Of a stretch of DNA of 64,000 nucleotides, positions 33,217 to 51,420 are shown piece after piece; the stretch's first letter is position 1, and each line of letters begins with the position of its first letter. The translations under genes were made by a program, and so were the position numbers. The notes beneath the pieces are model-generated. The model did not search any database and had not been told where the DNA came from. It saw nothing but the letters and a program-made list of their open reading frames with translations. The stretch is from Candidatus Hecatella orcuttiae (lineage in GTDB: Archaea > Thermoproteota > Bathyarchaeia > Hecatellales > Hecatellaceae). The DNA lies in the NCBI GenBank assembly GCA_002011035.2, contig MTLY02000003.1:117194-181193 (forward strand), given 5' to 3'.

Positions 33217-33241
33217 TGCAAACCCCTCGTTCAGGGAAACT

Positions 33242-33913
33242 CTAATCCGGTACTATTTCCGAACAGAGAACCGAGCGGCCCTCCAAAATTCTCCGCATTC
33301 GCTCAGGCTTCCGACCGTTGACCACGAAGCAAGTCAGCTTCCCTTCAGCCAAAAGCCTCGGAAGCTCAGCGTCGACGCAACTCCACCTCCGCCGGACTTG
33401 AAGCTCGCCTACGGTGAGCTGAGGAATGAGCTTGCCGCCGCCTTTCTTCGGGTCTTGGGTGAAAATTCCGTCCACATCCTTGAGAAGGAGAAGTTTATCC
33501 GCCTTTAGGCGGAGGGCTAGGAAGGCGGCGATGGAGTCGGAGGTTACATCCCAAGAAGCCCTCAGAAGCCTAGAGGCCGCTGTAAACCGAGAGGGGAGAA
33601 AAATCGGAAGGCCGCATCTCCCAAGCAAGATTTCCACCTCCTCCAATCTGCTCACAGTATGAGAGGCGGGTATGAAGCTGTGAAGGAGAAGGCCGAACTG
33701 GTCCATGGCCAAGACAGCCATCCGGTGGGCTGTCTGAGGCGGAAGGCTGAATTTTCGGTCCAGCGCCCTCACAGCATCCGCTAGAGGGCCTCCCCCCGGG
33801 ACGATGAGCAGTCGATGCCGATGGGACAGCCGGCTGAGGGTTTTGCAAAGCTTCTTCAAGGCCTGAGGATACTCAGTTAGGCTGCCTCCCACCTTCACCA
33901 CGGCTTCCACCAT
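33242..33913 (-). CDS. mfnE: [5-(aminomethyl)furan-3-yl]methyl phosphate kinase
   Basis: 223 residues, amino acid kinase fold: N-terminal VKVGGSLTEYP, the nucleotide loop VPGGGPLADAVRAL, and KLLLLKDVDGIFTQDPK near the C-terminus. Converts the aminomethylfuran phosphate to the diphosphate in methanofuran biosynthesis. Its ATG directly follows the mfnF stop codon, so the genes form one transcript (mfnD-mfnF-mfnE). Confidence 0.85.
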   Translation of the reverse strand: MVEAVVKVGGSLTEYPQALKKLCKTLSRLSHRHRLLIVPGGGPLADAVRALDRKFSLPPQTAHRMAVLAMDQFGLLLHSFIPASHTVSRLEEVEILLGRCGLPIFLPSRFTAASRLLRASWDVTSDSIAAFLALRLKADKLLLLKDVDGIFTQDPKKGGGKLIPQLTVGELQVRRRWSCVDAELPRLLAEGKLTCFVVNGRKPERMRRILEGRSVLCSEIVPD

Positions 33914-34996
33914 CTAAACTTCCCCTCCTCCTCCGCCGTAACGCTCCGCCGCCATCAACGCCGCTGCCCCTGCGGGAGCTGTCTTCGATATAGCAAGGCC
34001 TGTAAGCTCGTCAAGGTTGACAACTTGGCGAAAACCAGCCTTTAATGCCGCTTTCCGAGCTAAAAATTCAGCCCCTAGGCCTGCGGTCACCACGGGTATG
34101 CGGTTCTTATCCAAAGCAGGGAGGGCTGCGGCTTCAAAAACTTGGTTCAAGGCCTCTGCTATCTGGTTCACCTGTTCCCCTGCGACAAACTGGGCTATTT
34201 CCTCAACCTCCGTCTCCCCCAGCATGCTCAAATCTGCGCAGACAACCCTCGCCAGCCTGGCTGAGGCTTCAGACTTGGTGACTCCTCTCCCATCGCTGGT
34301 TTCCACGGTGTACTCCTCCTCTTTCAGGTTGCCGAGGATTAGGTGGACGTCGCCGGTGGTGGCGAAGAGCTCCGAGGAAACCCTCACTCTCCCACCGCCC
34401 AGAGGAATAGACTTGACCACCGCGGCGACGTTGGTCCTGAGGGCACCTGTGTAAACCAACTCCCCGCAGCCCAGCTTTTCCAAATCGGTTTTACCCCGCG
34501 CAGCAGTCTTGCTTGCGAGAACGGGGATGATGCTGGTGGTGGTGCTGCCCACGTCTACCACGAGGCCGTTGCTCAGGTAGCGGGCGACCAGCCATCCTGT
34601 GGCAGCCCAGTTGGCTGAAGCCACCCGGAGGGGGCTGAGCTTGGCTTCCTCAGGGGAGATCAGGCTTCCTTCCACGTCCACGATGCCTAAGGGTGAATCG
34701 CCGAAGGCTTCCCCCACGCAGGATATGATATAAGCTACGCCTTCTCCCTTGGTCTGAAAAACATCGGAGAGTTCCGCCGTCATGGTAACGCCTACGCCGT
34801 CCCAGCTGCCCGAGGGGGAACCTGCCATCCGTCTTCCCAGTCCCCTGAGAAGAGGGAGAAGACGGTCTTTGCCCTGCTTCCAAATGGGGAAATACTGGAC
34901 ATCTGTCCGGAGTTTTTTCTCTCCCCCCTCAACTTTTTGTAGGCAGGCTGCTTTAACGTTCGCTCCGCCTACGTCCAACCCCAAGGTTTTTATCAT
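33914..34996 (-). CDS. mfnF: Methanofuran biosynthesis condensing enzyme MfnF
   Basis: 360 residues, related to hydantoinase A/oxoprolinase. LGLDVGGANVKAACLQ at the N-terminus and VVDVGSTTTSIIPVL later are ASKHA-type phosphate loops, with CGELVYTGALRT as the family signature. It couples the furan diphosphate with the tyramine-glutamate part to build the methanofuran core. Overlaps mfnD by 4 bases. A TIGR-type name for this family is 'H4MPT-linked C1 transfer pathway protein'. Confidence 0.88.
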   Translation of the reverse strand: MIKTLGLDVGGANVKAACLQKVEGGEKKLRTDVQYFPIWKQGKDRLLPLLRGLGRRMAGSPSGSWDGVGVTMTAELSDVFQTKGEGVAYIISCVGEAFGDSPLGIVDVEGSLISPEEAKLSPLRVASANWAATGWLVARYLSNGLVVDVGSTTTSIIPVLASKTAARGKTDLEKLGCGELVYTGALRTNVAAVVKSIPLGGGRVRVSSELFATTGDVHLILGNLKEEEYTVETSDGRGVTKSEASARLARVVCADLSMLGETEVEEIAQFVAGEQVNQIAEALNQVFEAAALPALDKNRIPVVTAGLGAEFLARKAALKAGFRQVVNLDELTGLAISKTAPAGAAALMAAERYGGGGGEV

Positions 34997-36204
34997 GATC
35001 CTATTGGTGGATGCTCAGCCTTGAAAATCTTATCCAAAACCCTGCGGAGCCTCTGAGAAGCCTCAGAAAAGGTAGAGCCGTGGGCGACTAAGTATCCCTC
35101 TCTGGCCTCCGGCTGCCAGCGGGGCGGGAGGAAAAACTCCGCGCTTCCTCTGACCCTAGTTTGAGGCAGTTGAACCTTCTTGTAGACAGCGCTGCCCTTG
35201 GAGAAGATTTTCTCGGGAAGCCTTCCATGGAAGGCTGAGCCTAGAAGGAGGGCGGCTGGGTTTTCCTCTAGGATTTTCCTCACCCCTAGGTAGGATGCAG
35301 TCAGCCGAAGGTTGATGTCCACCACCACCGGCCCGTGGGGAGTTAAGACCAAGTCAACTCCCACATAACCCCGCAGAGGCGCTAGGGCCCTTGCAGCCTT
35401 CACAGCCTCCTTTAAAGCAGCCTCTTTCAAGGGTGGAGCGTAAGGGGTGAAGCCGCCTAGGTAGTGGGAAGCTGAAGATGGTCTTCCCAAGGTTATCCAC
35501 TGCTTGTTGAGGCTGAGGGGTTTCAGGTCCTTTCCGCTACAGAGGAGACTAACGCTGGCTGAGGCGCCCTTGAGGTATTCCTGAACTAGGAGCAGAGAGG
35601 CATGGGCCTCCTTTACCGTTTTCTCCAAGGCTGAAGCCACGTCTTCCTTCCGGTGAATTAGGCTGAGTCCGGTGCACCCTGCTTCTTGGTCAGGTTTGAC
35701 TACGGCTGGGAAACCCACAGCCTCCACTGCTTTCTCTAAGCCTTTGCAGCCGTCTTGAACCTTCGCCTTCACGGTTTTGGGAACTTTCACTCCCGCTTTT
35801 CTCAAAACCTCGTATACGGCCGACTTCCTCTGAAATTTTTTAACCGTTCCCGAAGGGCAGTTGAGGGACTGGCAGCCCCCTTCCTCCATCGTTTCCACAG
35901 CTTCACCTAAGGCGTTTCGAGTTTCAGGAGCTATGACCAAGGCGGCGTCAGCGGCAGCTGAAAGCTTTCGGACGGCAAAGTTTAACTCTTGGGGCGACTG
36001 GATGAAAACCGCTTCGTCGACGCGGAGGAGGGAACGGGCGGTTTTCAGCCTCCGGTCTAGGGTAACGGCTACTTGGCAGCCTAAACTTTTGAGGTCGGAT
36101 ATGAAAGCTTTGAACATTCCATAGCCGTCGCAGAGAATCTCCGATGGTATGACTTCCCCGGCAAACCCTCCCCCGGCTGCGTATTCGAACACAAAAACCT
36201 TCAC
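34993..36204 (-). CDS. mfnD: Tyramine--L-glutamate ligase (ATP-grasp)
   Basis: 403 residues. ATP-grasp features: AVVKPDQEAGCTGLSLI, then LLVQEYLKGASASVSLLCSG and VGVDLVLTPHGPVVVDINLR. The N-terminus VFVFEYAAGGGF matches archaeal MfnD. It attaches the first glutamate to tyramine for methanofuran. First gene of the mfnD-F-E unit. mfnA and mfnC are not in the window. Confidence 0.88.
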   Translation of the reverse strand: MKVFVFEYAAGGGFAGEVIPSEILCDGYGMFKAFISDLKSLGCQVAVTLDRRLKTARSLLRVDEAVFIQSPQELNFAVRKLSAAADAALVIAPETRNALGEAVETMEEGGCQSLNCPSGTVKKFQRKSAVYEVLRKAGVKVPKTVKAKVQDGCKGLEKAVEAVGFPAVVKPDQEAGCTGLSLIHRKEDVASALEKTVKEAHASLLLVQEYLKGASASVSLLCSGKDLKPLSLNKQWITLGRPSSASHYLGGFTPYAPPLKEAALKEAVKAARALAPLRGYVGVDLVLTPHGPVVVDINLRLTASYLGVRKILEENPAALLLGSAFHGRLPEKIFSKGSAVYKKVQLPQTRVRGSAEFFLPPRWQPEAREGYLVAHGSTFSEASQRLRRVLDKIFKAEHPPIGS

Positions 36205-36327
36205 GGCTTATGATGCCCCAAGTTGACGTTTGCGGCCTCTGGAATGTTTAGGAAATCTTGGAGTTTAACCTTTTATTTTTTAACCCGCCTCCTGAGAGTC
36301 TTTCTTACACTGGGAATTTCTAGGGTA

Positions 36328-36354
36328 AAAGTCATATGAAACAGTATAGACTTT
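36328..36354. promoter_or_regulatory. Inverted repeat upstream of the CDF transporter gene
   Basis: AAAGTC (36328-36333) and GACTTT (36349-36354) are perfect reverse complements, 15 bases apart, with further near-matches inside (CATAT and TATAG). It ends 13 bases before the ATG at 36368 and covers the place where a TATA box would lie for a short leader. A metal-responsive operator is plausible. Confidence 0.4.
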
Positions 36355-36367
36355 ATTTAGATGAGCA

Positions 36368-37252
36368 ATGTTGCTTGACTTCGAAAAAGGCGAAAGAGTT
36401 GCGAAAACGTCCGTCGGCATATTCGCCGTTATCGGAACGGTGGAACTGATTTTCGGGATCCAGTCGGGCAGCATTGCTTTAACAGCGGACAGCGCCCACA
36501 CCTTCACCGATGCGCTTGTTTCCGCCATCACCTTTTTCGGGCTCAGAACCTCCCGACGCCCACCCGGAGGGAGATTTCATTTCGGCTACCATAAGGTTGA
36601 GACGTTTTCCGCCGTGCTATCCGCCCTGATAATGGTTGCTGTAGGTGTGCTTATCGTCTATAGGTCCTTTCTAGAGCTGAGGGCTCCTGAGCCTCTGACT
36701 GCTCATTTCCCTGCCATGGCCACGGCGTTGGGAGCCTCAACGGTTTTCCTTTTGCTCGGCCTCAACAAGAGGAAGACAGCGAAGAGGATTAACTCTAAAT
36801 CTCTGAGCTTCGACGCCTTCAACACCTTGAAGAGCTCCGCAGCCTCGTTCTCAGCTTTCCTAGGCATCAGTCTCTCCTACCTGGGTTTTTTCCGGATAGA
36901 CGCCGTCGCCGGCCTTGTCATCGGCGGTTTCATTTTTGCCGTCGCTTATATTACGATAAAAGAATCCTCTCTCATTCTGCTGGATGCATGTGCGTGCAGC
37001 GTCGACACCTTGGAAACGGCTAGGAGACTGGTGGAAAGCGTGGAAGGCGTTAAGAAAGCTGAGGACATCCGGCTGAGAAGCGCAGGTCCCTTCATCATGG
37101 GTGATGTGGTGATAAAAGTTGACGGGAAAACAACCGTCCAAGAGCTTGAGGACATCAACGCCAAAATCGAGGATTCGGTCAGAAGCTATATTCCAAACCT
37201 TCTAAAGCTGATAATTCAACCCAAACCCTATGAGGAGGATGGACAGTCCTAA
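36368..37252 (+). CDS. Cation diffusion facilitator metal transporter
   Basis: 294 residues with about six helices. Metal-site residues in TADSAHTFTD (helix II) and the later SKSLSFDAFNTLKSSAA (helix V, with the D-x3-(D/N) pattern) fit the CDF family, as does FHFGYHKVETFSAVLSAL. The C-terminal domain (EGVKKAEDIRLRSAG) is the cytoplasmic ferredoxin-like regulatory part. Probably exports Zn, Fe or Mn; the metal cannot be read from sequence. Confidence 0.9.
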   Translation: MLLDFEKGERVAKTSVGIFAVIGTVELIFGIQSGSIALTADSAHTFTDALVSAITFFGLRTSRRPPGGRFHFGYHKVETFSAVLSALIMVAVGVLIVYRSFLELRAPEPLTAHFPAMATALGASTVFLLLGLNKRKTAKRINSKSLSFDAFNTLKSSAASFSAFLGISLSYLGFFRIDAVAGLVIGGFIFAVAYITIKESSLILLDACACSVDTLETARRLVESVEGVKKAEDIRLRSAGPFIMGDVVIKVDGKTTVQELEDINAKIEDSVRSYIPNLLKLIIQPKPYEEDGQS

Positions 37253-37338
37253 GCACGAATGTACAAAACCGCCGGCATTCAGCCTTCAGGTGGAAAGGCT
37301 TAGATATGGTTGCACTCCCCTCTAATGGGGGATGAATT

Positions 37339-37596
37339 TTGAGTCAGCCGCCAGTGAGCGAAGGAGAAGACTTGGACTTTGAAACCGTGAAAGAAGACTG
37401 GAACGAGTACAAGCTCAGCGACGGCTCAACCCTCAAGGTAAAGACCGTCCTCATAGGCGTTCGCCGGCTTAAAAACCAGTACACCCCCACCGGAGACCCT
37501 GTCTACGTTATCACCTCCCACAACGTGGTTCGGTCCCTCCACGTGCCTGAGAAACTTAAAAGAAGGCCAGCCCCGCCGGCTGGAACCACCATATGA
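37339..37596 (+). CDS. Small conserved-looking protein of unknown function
   Basis: 85 residues: an acidic start (SEGEDLDFETVKEDWNEYKL), then a beta-rich stretch (STLKVKTVLIGVRRLKN and GDPVYVITSHNVVRSLHVP) and a basic, Pro-rich end. No family recognised. The TTG start at 37339 is well supported by GGGGGATG six bases upstream. It precedes the PIN-ATPase-KH gene by about 70 bases on the same strand. Confidence 0.6.
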   Translation: MSQPPVSEGEDLDFETVKEDWNEYKLSDGSTLKVKTVLIGVRRLKNQYTPTGDPVYVITSHNVVRSLHVPEKLKRRPAPPAGTTI

Positions 37597-37664
37597 GGGC
37601 TTGAGGAAACAACTTATAGCGGGAGAGCTCTAAGAGTTTATTGGCCTATTGATGGGAGTTAAAG

Positions 37665-39473
37665 ATGGTTGAAAGAATTTTTCCTGACACCTCCGTCATC
37701 GTAGACGGAAAGATAGTTCGCATGTTGGAGCGAGGAGAACTCAAGGCTGAAGAAGTGGTCGTTCCCTTGGTGGTGGTGGAAGAGCTTCAGGCTCAAGCCT
37801 CCAAAGGTCGGGACTCAGGCTTCATAGGGTTAAGAGAGCTGAAAAGGCTCAGAGCCGTGGGGGAGACTCGAGGCATTAAAGTTTCCTTCTCTGGCACTAG
37901 GCCTAGCTTAGACGACATCAAGCTGGCTAGAAGCGGTAGAATCGACGCCCTCATCATGGACATGGCCTTAAAGGAGGGGGGAACCCTCGTCACCGCGGAC
38001 TATGTTCAAGCCTTAACCGCCGAAGCCAACGGCGCCAAGGTGGTCTACATTCCTCCCGAAGGCCGGCCGCCTAAGCTGAAGTTTGAAAAATACTTCACCC
38101 CCGATACCATGAGTGTTCACTTGAAAGCGGGAGCCGCGCCCATGGCCAAGCGGGGCAAACCCGGCGCCTCCAAACTGGTGAAGTTGAGAGAGAGGCCTCT
38201 CACCGAGGAGGAGATGGAGAACACCATCAGGGAGATCCACGAAGTCAGCAGGCTCAGAGGGAAGGGTCTTTTCGAAATATCCATGAATAATGCCACCGTC
38301 ATTCAGCTGGGAGACTACCGTATAGCCGTGGCTAGGCCTCCCTTCTCAGACGGCTTAGAAGTAACCATCGTCCGGCCTGTGGTGAAGCTGAGGCTGGATG
38401 ACTACGGCTTATCTCCGAAACTCTTAGAAAGACTTCGGGACAAGGCAGAGGGTATCCTCATAGCTGGGCCTCCGGGCTCCGGGAAAACCACCTTCGCCTC
38501 TTCTCTAGCCCAGTTCTACATGGCTCAAGATAAGATCGTGAAAACACTGGAGGCCCCTAGAGACCTGCAGGTGGGGCCTGAAATCACCCAGTATGCTCCC
38601 TTGGAGGGGAGCTTCGAGAAAACAGCGGACATTCTCCTCCTCGTCCGCCCTGACTACACTGTTTTCGACGAGATCAGAAAAACTCAGGACTTTAAGACCT
38701 TCGCCGACATGAGGCTGGCTGGAGTGGGCATGATAGGGGTAACCCATGCCAGCAGCCCCATCGACGCCATCCAGAGGTTCATAGGGCGGACGGAGTTGGG
38801 AATGATCCCCCACATCGTCGACACGCTGATTTTCCTCCGATACGGAACGGTGGAAAAAGTTTACGAGCTGAGTTTAACGGTCAAAGTCCCCACGGGGATG
38901 ACGGATGAAGCCCTAACAAGGCCTGTCATAGAAATCAGAGACTTTGAAAGCGGCCGCTTGGAGTATGAAGTCTACACTTTTGGGGAGGAGAACATCATCG
39001 TCCCCGTCGCCCCCACCGAAGCCGCCAAGGTTCCCCCAGCCCGAAGGCTGGCTGAAACCCGGATTTTGGAGGAAATCCGCAGGCTCGCCCCCAAGGCTGA
39101 GGTGGAACTGGTCTCCTCAGACCGGGCTGTGATCCGAGCGGACAGCCGAAGCATCCCCATGCTCATAGGCAGGGAGGGCGCCAACATCTCCAAGCTGGAG
39201 AAGAAGCTGGGAATCCGTCTGGATGTAAGGCCTCTCCGCGGCGAAGAGGGAAAACCCGTCAAATTCTCTTTAGAGGAAACCAAAAGCAGCATCGACCTGC
39301 TTTTCGACCCTGAAATAGTAGGAAGCCAAGCCCGTGTTTATGTGGACGGAAAATTTCTTTTCGCAGCGACGGTGGGTAAAAAAGCTAGGATACGGGTCTC
39401 GAAACGAAGCCCTATGGGATGGGAGCTCGGGGAAGCTATCACAGAAGACCGGGAGATCACCGTAACAGTATAA
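37665..39473 (+). CDS. PIN domain-PilT-like ATPase-KH domain protein (COG1855)
   Basis: 602 residues in three parts. Residues 1-130 are a PIN nuclease domain (FPDTSVIVDGKI with acidic residues, and LVTADYVQALTAEANGAK). Residues about 180-430 are a secretion-type ATPase (GPPGSGKTTFASSLAQ as Walker A, with YTVFDEIRKTQDF and GVTHASSPIDAIQRFIGRTE). Residues about 490-540 are a KH RNA-binding domain (RSIPMLIGREGANISKLEKK). The order PIN-ATPase-KH is a conserved archaeal architecture, likely an RNA-processing or quality-control enzyme. Confidence 0.9.
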   Translation: MVERIFPDTSVIVDGKIVRMLERGELKAEEVVVPLVVVEELQAQASKGRDSGFIGLRELKRLRAVGETRGIKVSFSGTRPSLDDIKLARSGRIDALIMDMALKEGGTLVTADYVQALTAEANGAKVVYIPPEGRPPKLKFEKYFTPDTMSVHLKAGAAPMAKRGKPGASKLVKLRERPLTEEEMENTIREIHEVSRLRGKGLFEISMNNATVIQLGDYRIAVARPPFSDGLEVTIVRPVVKLRLDDYGLSPKLLERLRDKAEGILIAGPPGSGKTTFASSLAQFYMAQDKIVKTLEAPRDLQVGPEITQYAPLEGSFEKTADILLLVRPDYTVFDEIRKTQDFKTFADMRLAGVGMIGVTHASSPIDAIQRFIGRTELGMIPHIVDTLIFLRYGTVEKVYELSLTVKVPTGMTDEALTRPVIEIRDFESGRLEYEVYTFGEENIIVPVAPTEAAKVPPARRLAETRILEEIRRLAPKAEVELVSSDRAVIRADSRSIPMLIGREGANISKLEKKLGIRLDVRPLRGEEGKPVKFSLEETKSSIDLLFDPEIVGSQARVYVDGKFLFAATVGKKARIRVSKRSPMGWELGEAITEDREITVTV

Positions 39474-39526
39474 GCTGACCCGAAAAAGATTAGGCCGTAT
39501 ATGGCATGGGTTTTCTGGGCGTGGGG

Positions 39527-40834
39527 TTATGAACTTCGGCAGCGTTTAATTTGCTGTCCTGTTTTTTTAAACTGGACAAAAAACTTTATGATGAACTCTT
39601 TGAGGTTTAAGGGGTCATCCACATAGGTGATGGTGGAGGTTCCGTTTAGCCTCGCCATTTTTTCGCAGAAACGTCTCAGCTCCGGCCGCCGGTCCAGTAT
39701 GATGATGTTAAGCCTGATGTCGGCTTTCCCGGCCATGTAGGCAGCCCTCAAGGCGCTTTCTTCAGGTGTTTCATCCCCATGGCAGGCTGCAGTGGGTTCC
39801 CCGTCTGTTATCAGGAAAATGTTCTTGTTGCCTTCTTCCCGGGAGAGAAGCTCTGTGGCGAAGTCGATAACCTGTCCTATGTCAGTGTATCCATAAGGCC
39901 TCAGCTTAACGATCTGCCCGTAGGACAAGAGTTGAGGCCTCTGGTTGTAGGCTACTACATGGAGTTTATCTTCCTTGTAGTCCCTCTGAAGTATCTCTCT
40001 GAAAGCCAAGGCTGCCGCTATGCCTCCTCTAAACTTATTCCCTCGCATGGAGTAGGACACGTCGACCAAAAGGGCGTTGGTTGACTTGGCTTCGTGGAGG
40101 GGAACCCTGATTTTCAAGTCATCCTCCGCGATCCTCATGTTCACAGGGTCTCTTACTGCCGTGCGGATAAGGGTCTCCTGAATGTCCAACATATCGTAAG
40201 AGTGCTGGAATTCGTCGAATTCCCGGAGAGTGGAGGAGGGCATACTACCCCAACCGGTTTCCTCAATCTCATGGGGGCCCTTATCTTGATGTTTTTTCAG
40301 GTTTAAGAAAACTTCCTCCAACACTTTCTCAGCTATGATTTTCTCACTTTTCTCCGTAAACTCCGGATACAAGGCTAAAACGTTCTGGTAAGGCCAATCC
40401 TTCGGCGGCTTCAGCTCAATCCAACCTTCCTTGTTGAGGGCTTCCAGTATCTGGTTGAGGAAATGCTGGATCAGCTGTTCGGCTTGAAGATCTGAAGGCT
40501 GAATTTCACCTTTTTTGATTTTCTCCAGAAGCTGCTGCCAAGCTTTCTCTTTGGCTTTACGCTGCAGCACGTATTCTTTCAGCCATCGGCTGTCGTGGCT
40601 TCTCATCCAATGCCAAAGTTGGCTTTCCGCCTCCGCGCCGAGGCTTTCCTCCATACACTGGTTCTTGCATTGCCGAATGAGCTCTTCCAGCAGTTGAGAT
40701 TCAGATTTTTTTTCACGTGATTGCGCATCAGGATTAAAAAGCTTGTAAAGAAGGTCCCCTGTCATCTCTTTTCCTAGAATGGAGGAAAGCTCTTGCTCCT
40801 CAGGCTTTCTGCACAGTTCACATTCAGGCTTCAT
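39527..40834 (-). CDS. VWA-domain protein paired with a MoxR-like ATPase
   Basis: About 435 residues from the Met at 40834, which overlaps the AAA gene's end by 11 bases; an earlier start at 40894 would add 20 residues. N-terminal CELCRKP gives a CxxC motif, a long helical middle follows, and a C-terminal von Willebrand A domain has all MIDAS parts: DVSYSM, GYTDIGQV and ITDGEPTA. Works with the upstream AAA ATPase like CobT/ChlD or MoxR-VWA pairs, which load metals or remodel protein complexes. The target is unknown. Confidence 0.85.
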   Translation of the reverse strand: MKPECELCRKPEEQELSSILGKEMTGDLLYKLFNPDAQSREKKSESQLLEELIRQCKNQCMEESLGAEAESQLWHWMRSHDSRWLKEYVLQRKAKEKAWQQLLEKIKKGEIQPSDLQAEQLIQHFLNQILEALNKEGWIELKPPKDWPYQNVLALYPEFTEKSEKIIAEKVLEEVFLNLKKHQDKGPHEIEETGWGSMPSSTLREFDEFQHSYDMLDIQETLIRTAVRDPVNMRIAEDDLKIRVPLHEAKSTNALLVDVSYSMRGNKFRGGIAAALAFREILQRDYKEDKLHVVAYNQRPQLLSYGQIVKLRPYGYTDIGQVIDFATELLSREEGNKNIFLITDGEPTAACHGDETPEESALRAAYMAGKADIRLNIIILDRRPELRRFCEKMARLNGTSTITYVDDPLNLKEFIIKFFVQFKKTGQQIKRCRSS

Positions 40835-42290
40835 TTTCCACCAGCTCTCCCAAATAGTAGGTGAAGTCCTTTTTGTCCACCAACCTAGGAGCACAGTGAA
40901 GCATGGATTCTAGGATGATCTCCACGGTTGAAAGATAATAATCGTCTTCCAGCGCATCGTCGCGGGAAATAGCCCTTACGTACTGGTTGATTACTCTATA
41001 CTTTCTCAGCTTGGGGACAAGCTCCATTCGAACGGATAAAGCCTGTCTCCCATCCGAGGGTGTGCCGCAGGCTCTCAGAGCATCGTAGAATTCTCGAAAC
41101 TTTTCAGAGGAAAGCTGATTGTAGATTTCTTTGCAGGTTTGCTTCAAAGCCTCCTCCAGCAGCTTGTCCACGATCTCCTCCTTCTTGTCCACAAACCCAA
41201 ATTCCACTTCCATCCTGCCTACGAGGGCAAGTTTGACTATTTCGTTGAATTCCCCGTAGTCGGAGAGGAGAGGCGTCCTCCGGCCGCTTCTCAGAGCTTT
41301 AGATAGAACGTGGTCAAATAGTTTTATGGTAGCTCTGCAGGAAGGCTCCGATTCTATCCTCCGAGCGTCGGCAAACCGCTCCTTGTCGCGGGCGTACCTA
41401 ACCGTTCTCGCCAATATCTCCTGATGCCAAGGAGGTATCTTGGGGGTCTCTCCGGATCGCGTGGCGTAAAACGTGTTCCTCAAACCTATTTCTATTTCCT
41501 CCTCCAAAGTCTCAGGAGGCCCTATTTCTATTTCCTCCATCCTGTCTAGGAGAGGCTCTTTGATGGGTGAGGTTCCCCGGTAGTTGGCGGGATTGGTGGA
41601 AGCTAACTCCAGGGTATCGATCTTGAAGGGGACAATATCCCCCTCCATGGTGGTCACCTGATGTTCTTCAAAGAACTCGTGGAGCAGAGTCTGCAGGGAT
41701 GAGGGCACTGCCCCCAATTCGTCGAAGTATCCAACCCCCCGATTGGCTTTGAGGGCCCTTCCGGGAATGAAGACTTCAGGATGGTCCAGCTCATAGCCTT
41801 CCCTAATCTTCTGAATGGATATGCCGCCTATGAGCTGCCTGCTGGTGAGCATAGGGTCCCCGGGAATCCTGACCCATATCCGCGGAATCCAAGTGAGCTC
41901 TACCCTGTTGCTTTCCAGAAGCCTCTTTCTGCAGGAGAAACAGGAAGGCCGAGTGGGGTCGTCGTGGATTTTACATCCCTTCACCGCCAAGAGTTTGGTG
42001 GGAAGCAGCTGCGCTATAGCCTTGGAGAAAGTTGTCTTACCGTAGCCTTTTCTTCCCTTGAAGAGGATGGGGGAATTGGAGAGGAGGGCGTTTTTCACCA
42101 GCTCTTTTTCCTTTCTCTTTCCAACTACGCTTGGGAAGATGTCCACTCCAGCCTTTTCACTTTCCAAGATTTTCTCTATTATGTAGTCGATGGTGTGTTT
42201 TGAGTGGTACTCCTTGTAGGGGGGACTCCAGATGTCGATTTCTTCCCCGTAGAGGGTGAAGACTGGAGCGTTACTCTCCTTTACCACCAC
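40824..42290 (-). CDS. AAA ATPase of the MoxR/magnesium-chelatase type with Cys motif
   Basis: 488 residues. Walker A GRKGYGKTTFSKAI, a central GVGYFDELGAVPSSLQ as Walker B, and arginine fingers in EPLLDRMEEIEI. A CxxC with a third Cys (CKIHDDPTRPSCFSC) is inserted after the Walker A helix, the place where ChlI/BchI and related AAA proteins can carry inserts. The start is uncertain: GTG 42290 is the first ordinary start, but the frame stays open and looks coding (CKTPNPSKLGTGEIDR-like stretch) for about 20 codons upstream. First gene of a pair with the VWA gene. Confidence 0.85.
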   Translation of the reverse strand: MVVKESNAPVFTLYGEEIDIWSPPYKEYHSKHTIDYIIEKILESEKAGVDIFPSVVGKRKEKELVKNALLSNSPILFKGRKGYGKTTFSKAIAQLLPTKLLAVKGCKIHDDPTRPSCFSCRKRLLESNRVELTWIPRIWVRIPGDPMLTSRQLIGGISIQKIREGYELDHPEVFIPGRALKANRGVGYFDELGAVPSSLQTLLHEFFEEHQVTTMEGDIVPFKIDTLELASTNPANYRGTSPIKEPLLDRMEEIEIGPPETLEEEIEIGLRNTFYATRSGETPKIPPWHQEILARTVRYARDKERFADARRIESEPSCRATIKLFDHVLSKALRSGRRTPLLSDYGEFNEIVKLALVGRMEVEFGFVDKKEEIVDKLLEEALKQTCKEIYNQLSSEKFREFYDALRACGTPSDGRQALSVRMELVPKLRKYRVINQYVRAISRDDALEDDYYLSTVEIILESMLHCAPRLVDKKDFTYYLGELVENEA

Positions 42291-42453
42291 TTCCTCGAAG
42301 ATGAGGCGGTCTATTTCGCCTGTTCCGAGTTTGGAGGGATTCGGCGTTTTTCCACAACTCCCTAGATATCTGGGATGAGAGTTATCACAATATAGATTTA
42401 CTTACTTATTTATTTCACGTTTTACAAACAAATAACAGCCCAGAGAGGGGCCT

Positions 42454-43032
42454 TCAGCCGCTTTCCCTCTGGGAGCTCTCAGCCGCTTTCCCCACCGCCT
42501 TGGCCACCTTAACCATGCTGGGCCGGAGGAGTTTACCGTGGAGGAGGTAGCCTTTCCGGAGGACCTCTACCACGGTGTTATCTTCAGCCGAATCGGTTTG
42601 AACTTGCTCCACCGCCTCGTGGACGGCTGGATTGAAAGTTTTTCCCAAGGCATCGATTTCCGTTACGCCTCGATCTTTCAGGGTTTCCTTTAAATCCCTT
42701 AAGGTCATCCGGATTCCTTCAGCCAGTGGCCCTTCTCCCGCAGAGGGCCCGGTGTATTGAGCTGCTCTCTCTAGGTTGTCCACGATTTCCAGAAGCTTCA
42801 CCATGAGTGGAATGCTCTGAGCCTCCGTGGCTTCTTCGATTTCCTTTTTAACCTTCTTCTGATAGTTGTCGAAGTCTGCTTGAAGATATTTAAGCTGGTT
42901 GAGGTAGCCTTCCGCCCGCGCCTTCTCCTCCTCCAAGGCTTTCCTAAGTTTTTCTATTTCTCCCTTCAGCTTTTCAGGGTCCGCTGTTTCGATTTCTTTT
43001 TCTTCTTTTTCATGAGGCTCCGAGGAACCCAC
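42454..43032 (-). CDS. grpE: Nucleotide exchange factor GrpE
   Basis: 192 residues: a charged, unstructured N-terminus, a long coiled coil (about 18-75, with LKYLQADFDNYQKKV, a GrpE signature), then the small beta domain ending VEVLRKGYLLHGKLLRPSMVKVA. It releases ADP from DnaK. No dnaK or dnaJ gene is present in the window, unlike the usual grpE-dnaK-dnaJ order, so it stands alone here; Archaea that have DnaK acquired it from bacteria. Confidence 0.93.
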   Translation of the reverse strand: MGSSEPHEKEEKEIETADPEKLKGEIEKLRKALEEEKARAEGYLNQLKYLQADFDNYQKKVKKEIEEATEAQSIPLMVKLLEIVDNLERAAQYTGPSAGEGPLAEGIRMTLRDLKETLKDRGVTEIDALGKTFNPAVHEAVEQVQTDSAEDNTVVEVLRKGYLLHGKLLRPSMVKVAKAVGKAAESSQRESG

Positions 43033-43210
43033 GGCTTTTTGCTACCCCCTGAAAAGCATTTTTAAAGCGAAAGTTTTCAGCATTTGAAAAACTGCGTTTC
43101 CATAATAAGTTTTTCGGGTTTTCAGCCGAAGAGTAGGGTATGAATTTTTAAATCAGCAGCGAGCTTTCTATGCAAATAGAGCTGAGAAAGCTGAAGGAGT
43201 GAAATGAAAC

Positions 43211-43972
43211 TTGTCCAGCGTTAAAATGGAAGAAATGCGTGTTGTGGAAACAGCTCCCTTTGACGTCAAGAAGCAAGCCTTTATCGTCGGGGTTCCGGAC
43301 GTAGGTTTGGTGGGCCCTATCGCCGCCTCCCACTTAGTCCAGTCGCTGGGTATGACGGAGATAGGATACGTGGAGTCAGATATGCTCCCCCCAGTGGTAA
43401 TCGTCCACAAAAACCATCCCAAGCCTCCCTTGAGGCTTTACGGCTCCGGAAGCCTAGCCGTCATGACCACGGAAGTGGCCTTGACTCCCAAGTCTCTCTT
43501 CTACCTCACCCGGGCTCTCACCCGGTGGGCTAAGATGAGGGGGATCGAATTTGTCGTGGGGATGACAGGTCTGGCTATCCCCAACCGAATGGATGTGGAG
43601 AAACCCACCGTTTACGCGGTGGGCTCCACCGACAGTGCTAAAGCTCTCATTAAGAAGGCTGAGATTCCTCCCTTCGACGAGGGGGTTCTTGTGGGAACTT
43701 ATGCTTTGCTCATCCGAGAGTGCCTCCGGGAAAACCAGCCTAACATCACCCTTCTCGCCGAGTCTCACTTCCAGTTTCCAGACCCTGGAGCTTCGGCCTC
43801 CACTATTCAAAGCCTGAACTCCCTGCTGAACCTCAACATAGGGGTTGAGGAGCTTTTGGAGAAGGCTGAGGAGATAAGGGTGAAAGCTCGGGAGCTCATG
43901 AGAAGAACTCAAGAGCAGCTGAGAGGCATGCATAAGGTACAGGAGCAAGAGGTCCCGGGAATTTACGTTTAG
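43211..43972 (+). CDS. PAC2-family (proteasome assembly chaperone-like) protein
   Basis: 253 residues. KQAFIVGVPDVGLVGPIAASHLV, GMTGLAIPNRMD and PFDEGVLVGTYALLI match the archaeal PAC2/DUF75 family (COG2047), a Rossmann-like protein group related to proteasome assembly chaperones. The TTG start at 43211 has GGAGTGA eight bases upstream. An Hsp20 gene follows after 12 bases, so the two form a protein quality-control unit. The function in archaea is not established. Confidence 0.85.
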   Translation: MSSVKMEEMRVVETAPFDVKKQAFIVGVPDVGLVGPIAASHLVQSLGMTEIGYVESDMLPPVVIVHKNHPKPPLRLYGSGSLAVMTTEVALTPKSLFYLTRALTRWAKMRGIEFVVGMTGLAIPNRMDVEKPTVYAVGSTDSAKALIKKAEIPPFDEGVLVGTYALLIRECLRENQPNITLLAESHFQFPDPGASASTIQSLNSLLNLNIGVEELLEKAEEIRVKARELMRRTQEQLRGMHKVQEQEVPGIYV

Positions 43973-43984
43973 GGGGGGTCAGCC

Positions 43985-44431
43985 ATGTCAACTAGGAAAA
44001 GGCGTTCCTTTTTCGACCTCTTCGATGAGATCAGAAGCGAAATAGACCGAATGATGAAAGAATTCACCGAAGCCATGCTGCCTGAAACGCCCATGTACGA
44101 CGTGACCAAGAAGGAGCTTCAACCCCTCACCAACATCCAAGAAACCGAGGAAAACGTCATCGTCACCATAGACCTGCCCTGCGTCAGAAAGGAAGACATA
44201 AAGCTTCACATCACAAAAGACAGTCTCAAAGTTGAAGCTCCCACCCGGCAGTGCATTCAATTCGAGCCGTGGGGACCCTTCCAAAGGCAGGTGGAGTTTG
44301 AAGTCTTTCGGAAAATCCTGAAACTACCCACCACCGTGGAAGCCAAGAAAGCTAGGGCCAGGTTCCAAGGCGGCATCTTGGAGGTAACCATCCCCAAAAA
44401 GACCGTGGGCTTCGAGGTGCCCATCGAGTAG
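43985..44431 (+). CDS. hsp20: Small heat shock protein Hsp20
   Basis: 148 residues. N-terminal helix (FFDLFDEIRSEIDRMMKEF), then the alpha-crystallin domain (EENVIVTIDLPCVRKEDIKL and FRKILKLPTTVEAKKARARF) with the end GGILEVTIPKK. Holds unfolded proteins. The ATG follows a G-run and lies 12 bases after the PAC2 gene. The usual C-terminal I-x-I is replaced by a short VPIE end. Confidence 0.93.
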   Translation: MSTRKRRSFFDLFDEIRSEIDRMMKEFTEAMLPETPMYDVTKKELQPLTNIQETEENVIVTIDLPCVRKEDIKLHITKDSLKVEAPTRQCIQFEPWGPFQRQVEFEVFRKILKLPTTVEAKKARARFQGGILEVTIPKKTVGFEVPIE

Positions 44432-44488
44432 AAGGCCATCCTCCGGCAGCAGGCTCTGCCTTAAAAAGCCTCGGATCGAGCAGCGGGG

Positions 44489-45592
44489 ATGATGATGGTT
44501 CAAAAAAGGAGACAGGTCACCTACAGGGAAGCCGGCGTAGACATCGAAGCTGAGGAAGAGGCCCTCAGAGAAGTTGTGAAAAAATGCCATGAAAGCTTCG
44601 TCTTCCGAAAAGGACCCGGCAGCGCTGTTATCCCCATTTCCCACTTCTCCGGCGTCGTCAAAATTTCCGAGAAACTGGGCTTGGCTGTGAAGACCGACGG
44701 AGTGGGATCCAAGGTTCTTATCGCCCAGCTTATGGAGAAATACGACACCGTGGGCATCGACTGCGTGGCCATGAACGTGAACGACGTAGTCTGCGTGGGA
44801 GCGGAGCCCCTCTCCTTCGTCGACTACATCGCCGTTCAAAAGCCGGACCCGCTGCTTTTAAAGGAGATAGCCTCAGGCCTCGTGGAGGGAGCCAGAAGGG
44901 CGAAGGTGGCCATCGTGGGGGGTGAAATAGCTCAGCTTCCAGAAATCATCCAAGGTAGCGTGGAAGGCAGAGGATTCGACTTAGCTGGCATGTGCATCGG
45001 CCTCCTGCCCCTGAATCGCCTGCTTTCAGGGGAAGCTGTTAGGGAAGGCGATGTGGTCGTAGGGTTTGAAAGCTCAGGCATCCACAGCAACGGTCTAACC
45101 TTGGCTAGGAAAGTTCTCCTAGAAAAGGCTAAACTCAGCCTCTTCAAGCCTGCGGAAGGACTTGACAGGCCCTTGGGGGAAGAACTGCTCGAGCCCACCC
45201 GCATCTATGTGGCGGAGGCTCTGGAAATGCTAGATTCGGGCCTCCAGGTTAAGGCTATGGCTCACATCACCGGAAAAGGCCTCCTAAACCTAGGGAGGAT
45301 AGGTGGAGATTGCGGTTTCCTCATCGAAAACCTACCCCCTCCTCCCCCCATCTTTAACCTCATCCAAAGCAGTGGAAAGGTGGCTGAGGAGGAAATGTAC
45401 CGGGTCTTCAACATGGGAATAGGTTTCTGCGCGGTGATTCCTAAGGAAGAAGTTGATTTAGCGTTAAAAATAGCGGAAAAACACGGTGGAAGAGCTCATC
45501 TTCTAGGAAAAGCTGTAAAAGACCCTGAAAGGAGGATCCGAATAAAACCCAAGCGGTTGGTTGGCGTTAGAGGGAGATTTGAGAAATATTAG
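44489..45592 (+). CDS. purM: Phosphoribosylformylglycinamidine cyclo-ligase (AIR synthase)
   Basis: Purine synthesis step 5. 367 residues with the PurM motifs TYREAGVDIEAEE, then VKTDGVGSKVLIAQ, DCVAMNVNDVVCVGAEPL, SSGIHSNGLTLAR and the C-terminal MAHITGKGL. Start at the first of three ATG codons at 44489; any of the three is possible. It follows Hsp20 with a 57-base gap, and the promoter arrangement is not clear. Confidence 0.95.
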   Translation: MMMVQKRRQVTYREAGVDIEAEEEALREVVKKCHESFVFRKGPGSAVIPISHFSGVVKISEKLGLAVKTDGVGSKVLIAQLMEKYDTVGIDCVAMNVNDVVCVGAEPLSFVDYIAVQKPDPLLLKEIASGLVEGARRAKVAIVGGEIAQLPEIIQGSVEGRGFDLAGMCIGLLPLNRLLSGEAVREGDVVVGFESSGIHSNGLTLARKVLLEKAKLSLFKPAEGLDRPLGEELLEPTRIYVAEALEMLDSGLQVKAMAHITGKGLLNLGRIGGDCGFLIENLPPPPPIFNLIQSSGKVAEEEMYRVFNMGIGFCAVIPKEEVDLALKIAEKHGGRAHLLGKAVKDPERRIRIKPKRLVGVRGRFEKY

Positions 45593-45684
45593 CTTCTGTA
45601 AGGAAGAAGTCCTTCCCAGCCGGATTATCAAAAATCTTATATTTCTAGGCCCGATTAAAAAACAGTTTAACGGAGGTAGTTTCC

Positions 45685-46764
45685 TTGGCTGAGATAAGAG
45701 TCGCTATAGCCGGTGTCGGCAACTGCGCTTCTTCCTTAGTCCAAGGAGTCTACTACTACAGAAACGTAAGTGATGATGAAAAAGTTTTAGGTCTCATGCA
45801 CACGGTTTTCGGAGGATACAGAATCGGAGACATACGGTTTGTAGCAGCCTTCGACGTGGACCCCAGAAAAATCGGAAAAGACCTCTCCCAAGCCATCTTC
45901 TCCGCGCCCAACTGTACCCTGAAGTTCTCCGATGTCCCATACTTGGGGGTACCGGTTCAACCAGCGCCTATGCTGGATGGTGTGGCACCTCACATGATGG
46001 AAAGCTTCGGGCTTAAGGACGACGACCCCGTGGAGCCCGTGGAGATCGTTGATGTCCTGAGAGCTTCGGAGGCTGATATGCTGATCAACTATCTTCCCGT
46101 AGGCAGCCGACAGGCTACGCAGTATTATGCGGAAGCCGCGCTTAAAGCTGGCTGCGGATTCGTCAACGCCATACCGGAGTTCATAGCCTCCAGTCCAGAA
46201 TGGGTGAAAAGGTACGAGGAAGTAGGCTTGCCGCTGGCTGGCGATGACATCAAAAGCCAAGTGGGTGCGACTATCATCCATAGGACCTTAGTGGAGCTTT
46301 TGGAGAGCAGAGGCGTCAAAGTGGATGAAACCTATCAGCTGAACATCGGGGGAAACACCGACTTCCTCAACATGACGGTGGAGGATCGCTTGGCTAGGAA
46401 GAGGATAAGCAAAACCGAGGCGGTTACAAGTCTTCTCCCCTACGAAATACCTGTGCGGATAGGCCCCTCCGACTACGTGCCTTTCCTCAACGACCAGAAA
46501 ATATGTTACCTCCACATTAAGGGGAAGAAGTTCGGCGGCGCCTCCATTACGGTGGACCTGAAACTTGCGGTGGAGGACTCTCCAAACAGCGCTGGAGTCA
46601 TGGTCGATGTGATTCGGGCGATGAAGTTGGGGTTAGACAGGGAGTTAGGCGGAGTCTTAACCAGCATCTCAGCCTACGCCTTTAAACATCCACCTCAACA
46701 GGTTCCAGACCATCAAGCCAGAGTGTGGGTGGAGGAATTCATCCAAGGTAAAAGACAGCGGTGA
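45685..46764 (+). CDS. ino1: Inositol-3-phosphate synthase
   Basis: 359 residues, NAD-dependent. VAIAGVGNCASSLVQGVYYY is the Rossmann start, with GDDIKSQVGATIIHRTL and NIGGNTDFLNM as the conserved active-site parts. Turns glucose-6-phosphate into myo-inositol-3-phosphate for archaeal inositol lipids and solutes. The TTG start at 45685 has GGAGGTAG upstream. It fits the lipid theme of the window (geranylgeranyl reductase, UPF0104). Confidence 0.95.
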   Translation: MAEIRVAIAGVGNCASSLVQGVYYYRNVSDDEKVLGLMHTVFGGYRIGDIRFVAAFDVDPRKIGKDLSQAIFSAPNCTLKFSDVPYLGVPVQPAPMLDGVAPHMMESFGLKDDDPVEPVEIVDVLRASEADMLINYLPVGSRQATQYYAEAALKAGCGFVNAIPEFIASSPEWVKRYEEVGLPLAGDDIKSQVGATIIHRTLVELLESRGVKVDETYQLNIGGNTDFLNMTVEDRLARKRISKTEAVTSLLPYEIPVRIGPSDYVPFLNDQKICYLHIKGKKFGGASITVDLKLAVEDSPNSAGVMVDVIRAMKLGLDRELGGVLTSISAYAFKHPPQQVPDHQARVWVEEFIQGKRQR

Positions 46765-46885
46765 AAACTCCGCTGTTAGATTCACCTCACCTACACCACC
46801 CTAGGGAAGTTTGACTCAGCTTTCAAGAAGCGATAGTGTAGTGTAGGGTTTAATCTTTAAATTCTTCATCCAACCATGTCGAAGG

Positions 46886-48055
46886 ATGATGATACCTTCA
46901 ACCGTCAGGGTGGCTACGGGTCTATACTGTAACTGGGATTCTTTCGTCAGAGTAGACAGTCAGGTTCTTCGCTGGGTTGAGAACTTGCAAAAAGTAAAAC
47001 CGCAAGCCGTTGTTTTAAAGTCCTTGGAAGAAGCTGTATACACTCTGCAAAAAGCTTTCAGGGAAGGAGGAAGGGAGTTCCTCATATCCCGGGAACTCTA
47101 CTCTTCTCTTGATTCTCTTTTTAAGAGGAGGGAGAAAAGAGTTGGAGGCAACGGTTACCATATGGGTAAAGTTTTGTTCGACCTAGGTCTTAGGCCGTTG
47201 GTATCCTACCCTTGCCGGCCTCCCAACCTCATGCGGGCTTCCCCGGCTTTCAAGATAGCTTGTGGAAAAGAATTCAAATTGCCTGAGGAGGCAGTACGGG
47301 TCGGGGACCCGGAATACGACCACATCGTCTTCGAGTTTACAGAAGACCCTTCTCTAGGGGTTTTCTTAGAAGGGCGCCATATACTCTCCTGGGACAGGAT
47401 GTCTTCGGAGGGAAAATTTGACTACGACTTTCTGGAGCATGCCTCCGACCGGAGGTTCGTGGACGTTCTGATTCTCGCCTACGCCCATCTTCTTCTCCCA
47501 GATTTCAAAAAGAAAACCGACGAGGTAGTTGACTACTTGGACGGTTCGAGGAGGCCAAAAGTGCACTTGGAACTGGGTCAAGGTTCGGAGGAGGCTTTAA
47601 CCTATGCCCTAAAAAAGTTCACAGACTATCACTGCGTAGACTCTCTAGGTCTTAACGAGAAAGAATGCGCAGACTTCCTGAAGGCTTCTTCAGGAAGACC
47701 TGAAGACCTAGCTGAAGCTGCATTGGAGGCCGCTAAGCTCTATGGTGTGGACAGAGTCTGCGTTCACTCATCCTCCTTCGCCCTATCCGTATCGAAGTAC
47801 AGCTTAGACAGGGAAGCGGAAGCCTTGACCACAGGCCGTTTGGTCGCCGCGGCTAAAACCTTCGGTCTTCCCTTCGAAGAAAGTCTGAATTCAGCTGCTG
47901 GTCTTCCCTGCTCAGAGGTTAAGCCGAGAAAAGAGAAGAGAGACGGCTACAGCCTCTGCCTCATTCCCGCTCTCATAAACAGGAACCCAAAGGTTTTAAC
48001 AGGCCTAGGAGACGCCTTCGCTGCTTCTCAGTCAGTCAAGGCGCTTATTCCCTAA
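46886..48055 (+). CDS. ADP-dependent sugar kinase (phosphofructokinase/glucokinase family)
   Basis: 389 residues. GGNGYHMGKVLFDLG is the ribokinase-fold substrate loop, and the C-terminal TGLGDAFAAS holds the catalytic Asp, as in archaeal ADP-dependent phosphofructokinase and glucokinase (EC 2.7.1.146/147). The two activities cannot be told apart by motif. This is the gateway of the modified Embden-Meyerhof pathway. It is followed by the LpdD-like gene after two bases. Confidence 0.85.
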   Translation: MMIPSTVRVATGLYCNWDSFVRVDSQVLRWVENLQKVKPQAVVLKSLEEAVYTLQKAFREGGREFLISRELYSSLDSLFKRREKRVGGNGYHMGKVLFDLGLRPLVSYPCRPPNLMRASPAFKIACGKEFKLPEEAVRVGDPEYDHIVFEFTEDPSLGVFLEGRHILSWDRMSSEGKFDYDFLEHASDRRFVDVLILAYAHLLLPDFKKKTDEVVDYLDGSRRPKVHLELGQGSEEALTYALKKFTDYHCVDSLGLNEKECADFLKASSGRPEDLAEAALEAAKLYGVDRVCVHSSSFALSVSKYSLDREAEALTTGRLVAAAKTFGLPFEESLNSAAGLPCSEVKPRKEKRDGYSLCLIPALINRNPKVLTGLGDAFAASQSVKALIP

Positions 48056-48057
48056 AG

Positions 48058-48519
48058 ATGAAGGGCTTTGTTCGCAGTGTGGTAAAATTATATGCCGGGA
48101 GGTTTTATTCCAAAATTATGGAAGCTTCGGGTACAGGTATATTGACAGCGTCCGCTGGAAAGGGAAGAACCGCTGCGAACAGCGTAGGCATCTTCATGGA
48201 AAGAGGAGCAGTTCTCTGCATCTTTGGCAGAGAATCTCCCCATGTGGGTGCTGTAGCTTTGGCTGTCCCTCGGCCGAGTTTGAAGGATCCTCGTAGGCTG
48301 AGTGCAACTTCCTCGGTGCTCACGGTAGTCGGCCATAAGGAAGATGAAATAGTTAAACCTCTTTCAGAGGAAGCCGCCAAGAAGCTTAACCTCACCACAG
48401 TAGTTGTGGCAGGTCTTCACGTGGAGAAAGCCTCAGACCGGGACATCGAAGCCTTAAAAGAAAACGCTAAGCTGAGCGCAGAAAAACTCGTGAAAACCTT
48501 CATGAGACGTTGGAAATAA
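48058..48519 (+). CDS. LpdD-like protein (prenylated-flavin chaperone-like fold)
   Basis: 153 residues. Gly-rich start (TGILTASAGKGRTAANSV), then SPHVGAVALAVPRPSLKDPRR and VVGHKEDEIVKPLSEEAAKKL, which matches the LpdD-like family linked to UbiD-type decarboxylases by prenylated flavin handling. Starts two bases after the sugar-kinase stop codon, so co-expressed. No UbiD/UbiX gene is in the window; the role next to a sugar kinase is unclear. Confidence 0.6.
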   Translation: MKGFVRSVVKLYAGRFYSKIMEASGTGILTASAGKGRTAANSVGIFMERGAVLCIFGRESPHVGAVALAVPRPSLKDPRRLSATSSVLTVVGHKEDEIVKPLSEEAAKKLNLTTVVVAGLHVEKASDRDIEALKENAKLSAEKLVKTFMRRWK

Positions 48520-48525
48520 AAAGAC

Positions 48526-48560
48526 AACCCTGCCGGGCGACCCCGGCGGGAGCTAGGGTT
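48526..48560. terminator. Bidirectional hairpin between convergent genes
   Basis: AACCCT (48526-48531) pairs with AGGGTT (48555-48560), and GCCGGG (48532-48537) with CCCGGC (48542-48547). It sits between the convergent ends of the LpdD-like gene (48519) and the ferritin-like gene (48559), so it could stop transcription from both sides. Confidence 0.6.
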
Positions 48561-48975
48561 ATTTCTCCATCAGGCTTGTGAATGTGTCGTGGTGGTTTTC
48601 TTCATCCTCCAGTATCTTTCTGAAAATTCTCGCCGTGGTCACATCTTCTTCATTCTGCGCCGTTTTAATTATCTGCTTGTAAAGCCGGATTGCTCCTTCT
48701 TCGTCTTTTATATCTTGTTTTATCATTTCTTTAAGGGTTTTTCCGACAAAGATGGGCTTAGGTTTGGTTGTAGGTTTTCCTCCCAAGTAAGCCAGTCTTT
48801 CAGCGATTTCTTCAGCGTGCTTCATCTCGGTTATAGCTATGCTTCTCAGCTCATCCTTCACGGCGAAACCTTCTACCCCCGCCCAGAGGATATGCTGCCA
48901 CATATACTGGATTGATACCTGTAACTCTCTTGCCACTGCTTCATTCAACAAATCCAGCAATTTTTTTGATACCAT
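48559..48975 (-). CDS. Ferritin-like di-iron protein (bacterioferritin/Dps-like)
   Basis: 138 residues, four-helix bundle with di-iron ligands: E in VARELQVSIQYMWQH, EMKHAEEIAERL, DEEGAIRLYKQ and EDEENHHD. Probably binds iron for storage or peroxide reduction. The ATG at 48975 is preceded by GGTGAGG eight bases upstream. Faces the polyferredoxin gene on the other strand. Confidence 0.88.
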   Translation of the reverse strand: MVSKKLLDLLNEAVARELQVSIQYMWQHILWAGVEGFAVKDELRSIAITEMKHAEEIAERLAYLGGKPTTKPKPIFVGKTLKEMIKQDIKDEEGAIRLYKQIIKTAQNEEDVTTARIFRKILEDEENHHDTFTSLMEK

Positions 48976-49141
48976 ATTCTAACCTCACCTTATACTCCGA
49001 AATAGGCGCGATTTGTTTTTAAGATTTTCTATCACCTGCCCGCAACAAAGATAATCAAGCAGAAAGACTCCTCTCCTGGAGTGAAAGATAATAATCCCCG
49101 CCGCTTAATATACTCCAAGGAAGCATATTCGAGGTTTCACC

Positions 49142-51321: not shown

Positions 51322-51420
51322 GGGCGTCGAGGCTTAAACGGCTTGGTTGGTGGAAAAGATTTATGGGCAGCCAAGCATCTGTGAATACACTTTGCAAGGC
51401 AGGATTGAGGGGGAGAAAAA

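Follow-up and report, generated by a model that had tools for sequence, protein, structure and literature searches.

What might a chelatase-type ATPase do beside a von Willebrand factor A (VWA) protein, with cysteines conserved in both, in an archaeal family that apparently does without a chelatase large subunit? The question is raised by a 64,000-nucleotide stretch of the genome of Candidatus Hecatella orcuttiae (contig MTLY02000003.1, positions 117,194 to 181,193; hereafter the window). On its minus strand, which carries every feature of the pair described below, an AAA+ ATPase gene of the chelatase (ChlI-like) type (40824..42290; 488 amino acids counted from a GTG) is followed by a gene for a VWA-domain partner (39527..40834; 435 amino acids, with an ATG at 40834). 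The AAA-VWA pair is real and conserved, and it is a new form among the known AAA+/VWA pairs. As to its function, we would give an even chance to a stand-alone protein-remodelling motor like NorQD or ChlID, whose cysteines would hold a structural metal. The observations behind this reading are the sequences, their conservation and pairing, the place of the cysteines, the absence of any CobN/BchH match in the window's family and, in some Hecatellales, a gene link to Hsp70.

Conservation of the gene pair and its cysteines

The two genes overlap by 11 nucleotides, so that the ATG of the VWA gene falls within the last codons of the AAA gene; the list of open reading frames also holds a longer alternative VWA frame with a GTG start at 40894. 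Walker A (GRKGYGKTT, residues 79-87; GRKGYGKT at 42033..42056) and Walker B (YFDELG) are found in the AAA protein, and the VWA protein has all of the motifs of the metal ion-dependent adhesion site (MIDAS), namely DVSYS (40049..40063), YTDIG and ITDGEPT. A sequence-only reading of this DNA had called these motifs intact, and rightly so. It had also described a C-x11-C-x2-C motif after the P-loop helix of the AAA protein. Such a motif exists in the loop that follows this helix (CKIHDDPTRPSCFSC, 41931..41975, within the extra segment of ChlI-like ATPases), but its spacing is one residue shorter, C106-x10-C117-x2-C120. Likewise, the VWA protein does carry CELC near its N-terminus (a CxxC at 40811..40822), but it begins MKPECELC, with C5 and C8 as the cysteines, and not with CELC itself.

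The annotated GTG probably makes the AAA protein too short. Coding conservation extends past it, with the family profile aligning six codons further upstream, and the upstream part of the frame holds no ATG, GTG or TTG in the window or in L007, L008 and L009, where an ATA stands at the same place instead. This ATA also occurs in L010, where an ATG stands upstream; L012 has an ATG. In the window, these conserved N-terminal codons fall within 42291-42400 (minus strand), and the in-frame ATA there is a possible rare start codon.

In the window's family, seven of eight genomes have orthologues of the AAA protein, and the remaining one is 61% complete. Among the matches listed, others belong to named Hecatellales, Archaeoglobi, a Thermoprotei and a Nitrososphaeria metagenome-assembled genome. 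Of 398 genomes sampled from the window's phylum, 4 have orthologues (the 10 matches include 6 to a more distant group, G3), and a sample of the phylum of genome G583 gave the window's own group, family A, in 47 of 392 genomes; all 47 of these loci score as family A, 51 genomes having matched at 1e-35, four of them with members of a sister group, G2. Group G3 itself (L104-L109) is a further related set of AAA proteins in other Thermoproteota, two of which, L104 and L106, have GQAKT in place of GxGKT; L104 retains some of the cysteines, and L106 has lost them.

Within family A, the C-x10-C-x2-C motif is kept in 57 of 57 distinct AAA proteins, the Walker A sequence GYGKTT in 56 (L219 has GFGKTT) and the MIDAS motif DxSxSM in all 57 pairs. 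A VWA frame followed the AAA gene at all 12 loci of a smaller set and in all 57 distinct members. Moreover, an N-terminal VWA cysteine is present in 56 of the 56 scored family-A pairs, in CxxC form in 51, and in 75 of 75 when the 19 scored G2 pairs are included; this count relied on patterns that contain cysteine, and a reading of the neighbour list by eye found no family-A or G2 VWA protein without one. The sequence-only reading had noticed cysteine clusters in both partners and had set down beforehand, as the finding that would speak against it, a lack of conservation among homologs. That objection falls, because both the AAA motif and the N-terminal VWA cysteine are kept without exception in the family-A proteins scored.

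The pair count drew on 84 distinct AAA rows, nine of which were left out: L160, missed by the loop pattern; L143 and L066, whose AAA genes are cut by the contig; L063, whose VWA start lies beyond the searched stretch (NPCSDL is seen there); L134 and L152, where the fetched stretch held no VWA frame; and L145, L154 and L185, where the next frame was judged by eye not to be VWA or was masked. Of these, L160 is the 57th family-A member, with an AAA loop of CKIYDDPTHPSCFSC and a VWA frame carrying KPKCALC. Two others, L145 and L185, are G2-type AAA genes with no VWA gene recognisable by eye directly downstream.

Some variation in the cysteines follows clades. The five family-A pairs that lack the VWA CxxC form one clade and have an extra AAA cysteine in RICGDP, where the others have a different residue before GDP. 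The sister group G2 has three or four loop cysteines in the AAA protein and one or two at the VWA N-terminus. A further family-A clade (L217, L223, L228) carries a fourth loop cysteine (CKIGCDP, as in chelatase ATPases) and keeps the VWA CxxC. The remaining cysteines of the window's VWA protein (CKNQC and the C-terminal CRSS) showed no conservation across a 14-row alignment.

The same gene pair is found in G2 from Bathyarchaeia, Chloroflexi, Deltaproteobacteria and Alkanophagales, as well as in Nonomuraea and Thermomicrobium, whose VWA proteins, at 684 and 699 amino acids respectively, exceed the window's in length. The AAA protein of Nonomuraea has the identical C-x10-C-x2-C spacing, but its VWA partner lacks an N-terminal cysteine; that of Thermomicrobium is annotated as "sigma 54-interacting". 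Presumably the mycobacterial Rv0958/Rv0959 ("magnesium chelatase") are also kin.

A chelatase-like motor, probably without a chelatase pathway

To which branch of the AAA+ ATPases does the motor belong? The sequence-only reading had called the genes a MoxR-VWA pair. In the wide sense the kinship holds, as the MoxR (MRP) family belongs to the helix-2-insert clade of AAA+ proteins, according to PMC7159879, and it too has VWA partners. The MoxR label proper does not survive: the MoxR profile PF07726 (AAA_3) scored 22.8 bits against a cut-off of 27, whereas the ChlI-type profile PF01078 (Mg_chelatase) passed (23.4 bits for a cut-off of 20.3, the match being confined to residues 54-98), as did AAA_5 and Sigma54_activat. 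In addition, the extra segment after the P-loop helix is present in the family-A, G2 and chelatase-like rows and absent from the MoxR-labelled rows, these rows being labelled by their P-loop and all class labels coming from our own patterns.

Comparison with the chelatases points the same way. A sequence search of the PDB gave ChlI as the best match of the AAA protein (1.3e-6), the cysteine loop aligning with ChlI DPFNSDPSDPDLMSDEVR. The best NCBIfam profiles were TIGR02442 (3.1e-9), for a cobaltochelatase ATPase, and TIGR02030 (1.6e-7), for BchI/ChlI. A ChlI-specific insertion, i1, is described right after helix 2 in PMC10653834, where it is proposed to contact the partner subunits. The cysteine segment would correspond to this insertion, by our reading of the alignment rather than by the residue numbers of i1. 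In the titles and abstract openings of the open literature, no description of the AAA-VWA pair or of cysteines in insertion i1 was found.

A tree of 60 proteins recovered family A as one clade (support of 100 by the approximate likelihood ratio test, SH-aLRT; 97 for family A with G2 and G3) and placed the combined group beside the chelatases rather than MoxR (SH-aLRT 82); it was a quick tree with long-branch warnings, included the cysteine segment and sampled 60 of 92 classified rows and 9 of 40 MoxR-labelled ones. The label "Chel" had been assigned by the cysteine motif itself, so the presence of this motif in "Chel" members is no result, and one such row, L046, grouped with MoxR. Because the place of the loop is shared with chelatase-like ATPases, and because of the placement in the tree, it looks as though the cysteine cluster was inherited as part of the chelatase-type motor, the second cysteine having here changed to aspartate. 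Archaeal ATPases linked to CobN have cysteines at the same place (C-x3-C and C-x2-C), the difference being that the second cysteine is mostly aspartate in family A (CKIxDDP, versus CPFNCNP in theirs).

One could conceivably assign the AAA protein, as the motor, to a class I tetrapyrrole chelatase for magnesium or cobalt. Its best NCBIfam matches are, after all, chelatase profiles, and in four of the five CobN-bearing genomes (G010, G039, G043 and G051) a chelatase-like ATPase with a four-cysteine loop, in G010 CSFNCNPKNPAEMCDIC, lies on the same contig as CobN. Yet the scores of the AAA protein are far below the curated cut-offs (35.8 against 779.45 bits for TIGR02442, and 30.9 against 466.95 bits for the equivalog TIGR02030), and the match covers only part of the protein. 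CobN/BchH (PF02514) was found in 5 of the 61 genomes searched and in none of the eight genomes of the window's family, several of them incomplete; in the other lineages with family A, this domain was not searched for. The lack of a large subunit in these eight genomes therefore makes a tetrapyrrole chelatase unlikely, and with the low scores it becomes highly improbable. The idea of a chelatase in the sequence-only reading thus stands in part: the resemblance holds for the motor, and probably does not for the pathway.

A candidate remodelling motor and its cysteines

If the pathway is not that of a chelatase, what could the motor act on, and how? Adjacent AAA+ and VWA genes with intact Walker and MIDAS motifs, as found here, are the mark of remodelling pairs like NorQD. 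In NorQD, according to PMC13036017, a finger of the VWA protein sits in the pore of the ring; as ATP is turned over, the adaptor is proposed to be twisted, so that the client opens for metal to be inserted. By analogy, the ChlI-like AAA+ protein of the chelatase clade would form a ring, and the VWA protein, with its intact MIDAS, would serve as an adaptor that docks in the ring and presents a client. As described for NorQ/NorD, the adaptor would then be twisted by ATP hydrolysis, which would remodel the client. The three loop cysteines of the AAA protein, in the segment equated with i1, would hold a structural metal, most likely zinc, in a site that might be closed by an N-terminal cysteine of the VWA protein, and the loop would act as a metal-stabilised contact element.

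Structure models of the single chains are compatible with a NorQD-like pair without proving it. The best Foldseek match of the VWA model is chain 9qhe_G of a NorQD complex (E 4.9e-8), which we take to be NorD. By VIA-align, the fold nearest to the AAA model is NorQ (Z 13.3, root-mean-square deviation 4.5 over 250). In these folds, and in being an AAA+ plus VWA pair, the proteins resemble NorQ/NorD and CbbQ/CbbO. NorQ and CbbQ, for their part, are not known to have the long cysteine segment, and no tie of the pair to nitric oxide reductase or Rubisco came to light, though no search aimed at one was made.

Several findings weigh against a NorQD-like motor with a structural metal. CbbQ ties with NorQ in the VIA-align comparison of the AAA model, and Foldseek puts Lon first and NorQ third. 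For the VWA model, VIA-align prefers a Catenulispora VWA protein (Z 20.1), NorD ranking 32 (Z 17.0). The core of the AAA model (residues 138-163 and 165-248), which rests on an alignment of only 14 sequences, has a predicted local distance difference test score (pLDDT) below 50. The bacterial relative from Thermomicrobium lacks all of these cysteines in both proteins, which means that the wider AAA/VWA architecture can do without them. The search for DnaK gave no match in G002, G004, G006, G007, G126 and G269, all of which have the pair, the first four being 62-85% complete, which weakens each single absence. Finally, across 32 neighbourhoods the partner is the only gene to recur in more than 8, and no recurrent neighbour names a client; the neighbourhoods were 31 regions of 8-21 kilobases (kb), 27 of them of at least 16 kb, plus window positions 33000-52000, with neighbours clustered and then judged by eye without a scan of a family library, except for the window and the named genes of L037 and L117.

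Another role for the cysteines would be that of a redox switch, in which disulphides formed under oxidation stop ATP hydrolysis and the pair is active only when reduced. The precedent is NorQ, in which, according to PMC13036017, a disulphide between Cys46 and Cys68 deforms the P-loop and leaves almost no ATPase activity; the AAA cysteine loop here comes after the P-loop helix. However, three spaced cysteines with a C-x2-C would generally suggest a metal site more than a single disulphide, and the VWA CxxC lies in a poorly ordered N-terminus, with a mean pLDDT of 52 over the first ten residues of the model. A redox switch is thus distinctly unlikely.

A further idea concerns how the two partners might meet. 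The three cysteines of the AAA loop and at least one cysteine of the VWA N-terminus could together make one metal site, and the ATP cycle would then make and break a metal link between the proteins. This is attractive because all 75 scored pairs of family A and G2 have at least three AAA cysteines and at least one VWA cysteine. In the family-A clade of L056, in the Bathyarchaeia members of G2 and in L044, there is only one VWA cysteine and a fourth is found in the AAA protein, a pattern that would fit the transfer of a ligand between the partners. Of course, there are exceptions to such a swap: the L217 clade (four plus two or more), L062 (four plus two, the extra cysteine being outside the loop) and three G2 rows (three plus one). 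On the tree, each trait changed three times, L062 being counted as without the fourth AAA cysteine, and the independent-pairs test had only two to three pairs, too few for significance. The Nonomuraea pair, with three AAA cysteines but no N-terminal VWA cysteine, and the Thermomicrobium pair, with none in either protein, also leave a shared site unproven, and it seems on the whole unlikely. If true, a shared metal would be a new way of coupling an AAA+ ring to its adaptor, and one that is easily testable, since the thiols can be changed singly.

Hsp70, metal insertion and the search for a client

Could the neighbourhood supply the client? The next gene upstream of the AAA gene in the window is grpE (42454..43032, minus strand, identified by profile searches), giving the order grpE-AAA-VWA. 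G001 and G003 have grpE-dnaK-dnaJ-AAA-VWA, with the pair ending the operon (DnaJ was identified by Pfam in L037). This arrangement could suggest a co-chaperone of Hsp70 that passes clients to or from DnaK-DnaJ-GrpE, much like ClpB, and an Hsp20 gene near the pair in the window, with relatives in L039, L240 and L241 (cluster 7), would fit the idea. Among the nine family-A genomes searched, however, DnaK was found only in the window genome, G001 and G003; G005, which was searched too, gave neither a family-A match nor DnaK. Since six genomes keep the pair with no match to DnaK, Hsp70 is seemingly not required, and dependence on it as a requirement was rejected. Relatives of the operon's GrpE, DnaK or DnaJ are also absent from 29 of the 32 neighbourhoods. 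An Hsp70 co-chaperone accordingly has only a small probability.

In the window genome itself, dnaK and dnaJ lie apart from grpE on a different contig (G000, contig C2, 73066-76208; L117, 7067-10209), beside an Hsp20 gene. The Hsp20 gene of the window follows a PAC2-family gene, resembling a proteasome assembly chaperone, at 43211-44431, and the two are divergent from grpE; relatives of both are found close to the Hsp70 operon of L039.

Another possibility is a machine that inserts metal or metal clusters, with the cysteines carrying metal to a metalloenzyme client that the motor opens. Metal insertion is indeed served by NorQD and CoxDE, both much-studied AAA/VWA pairs (PMC13036017; PMC7159879), and the cysteines are conserved in both partners. 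The sequence-only reading had proposed a search by co-occurrence for the client, for instance aldehyde ferredoxin oxidoreductase (AOR). The AOR N-domain occurs in 39 of the 40 pair-bearing genomes, but also in 34 of 40 without the pair (73 of 80 overall; 14 of 20 in the phylum of G583 and 20 of 20 in the window's class among those without), the 80 genomes having been hand-picked from earlier lists and "without" meaning no match at the search thresholds. AOR as a client was therefore set aside as uninformative. With no neighbour recurring beyond 8 of the 32 loci, the co-occurrence check named no client. The AAA loop, moreover, stands at a fixed place common to chelatase-type ATPases, as would be expected of a structural element. 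Taken together, an insertion machine is possible yet rather unlikely.

Four neighbour clusters of eight loci amount to one synteny block in the same eight loci. In the window, a 4Fe-4S ferredoxin-type gene is followed by an aldehyde ferredoxin oxidoreductase gene at 49142-51321, roughly 7 kb away from the pair, on the opposite strand. On the other side, at 33242-36204, amino acid kinase, hydantoinase/oxoprolinase-like and ATP-grasp genes adjoin (the last with MfnD as its best NCBIfam profile, under the cut-off), and relatives of this trio are also found together in L041.

Chelatase-type motors are familiar from the metalation of tetrapyrroles. Here, a conserved archaeal branch keeps such a motor together with a VWA adaptor, with conserved cysteines in both and, in the window's family, apparently without the chelatase large subunit. 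The pair probably serves something other than the insertion of metal into tetrapyrroles.

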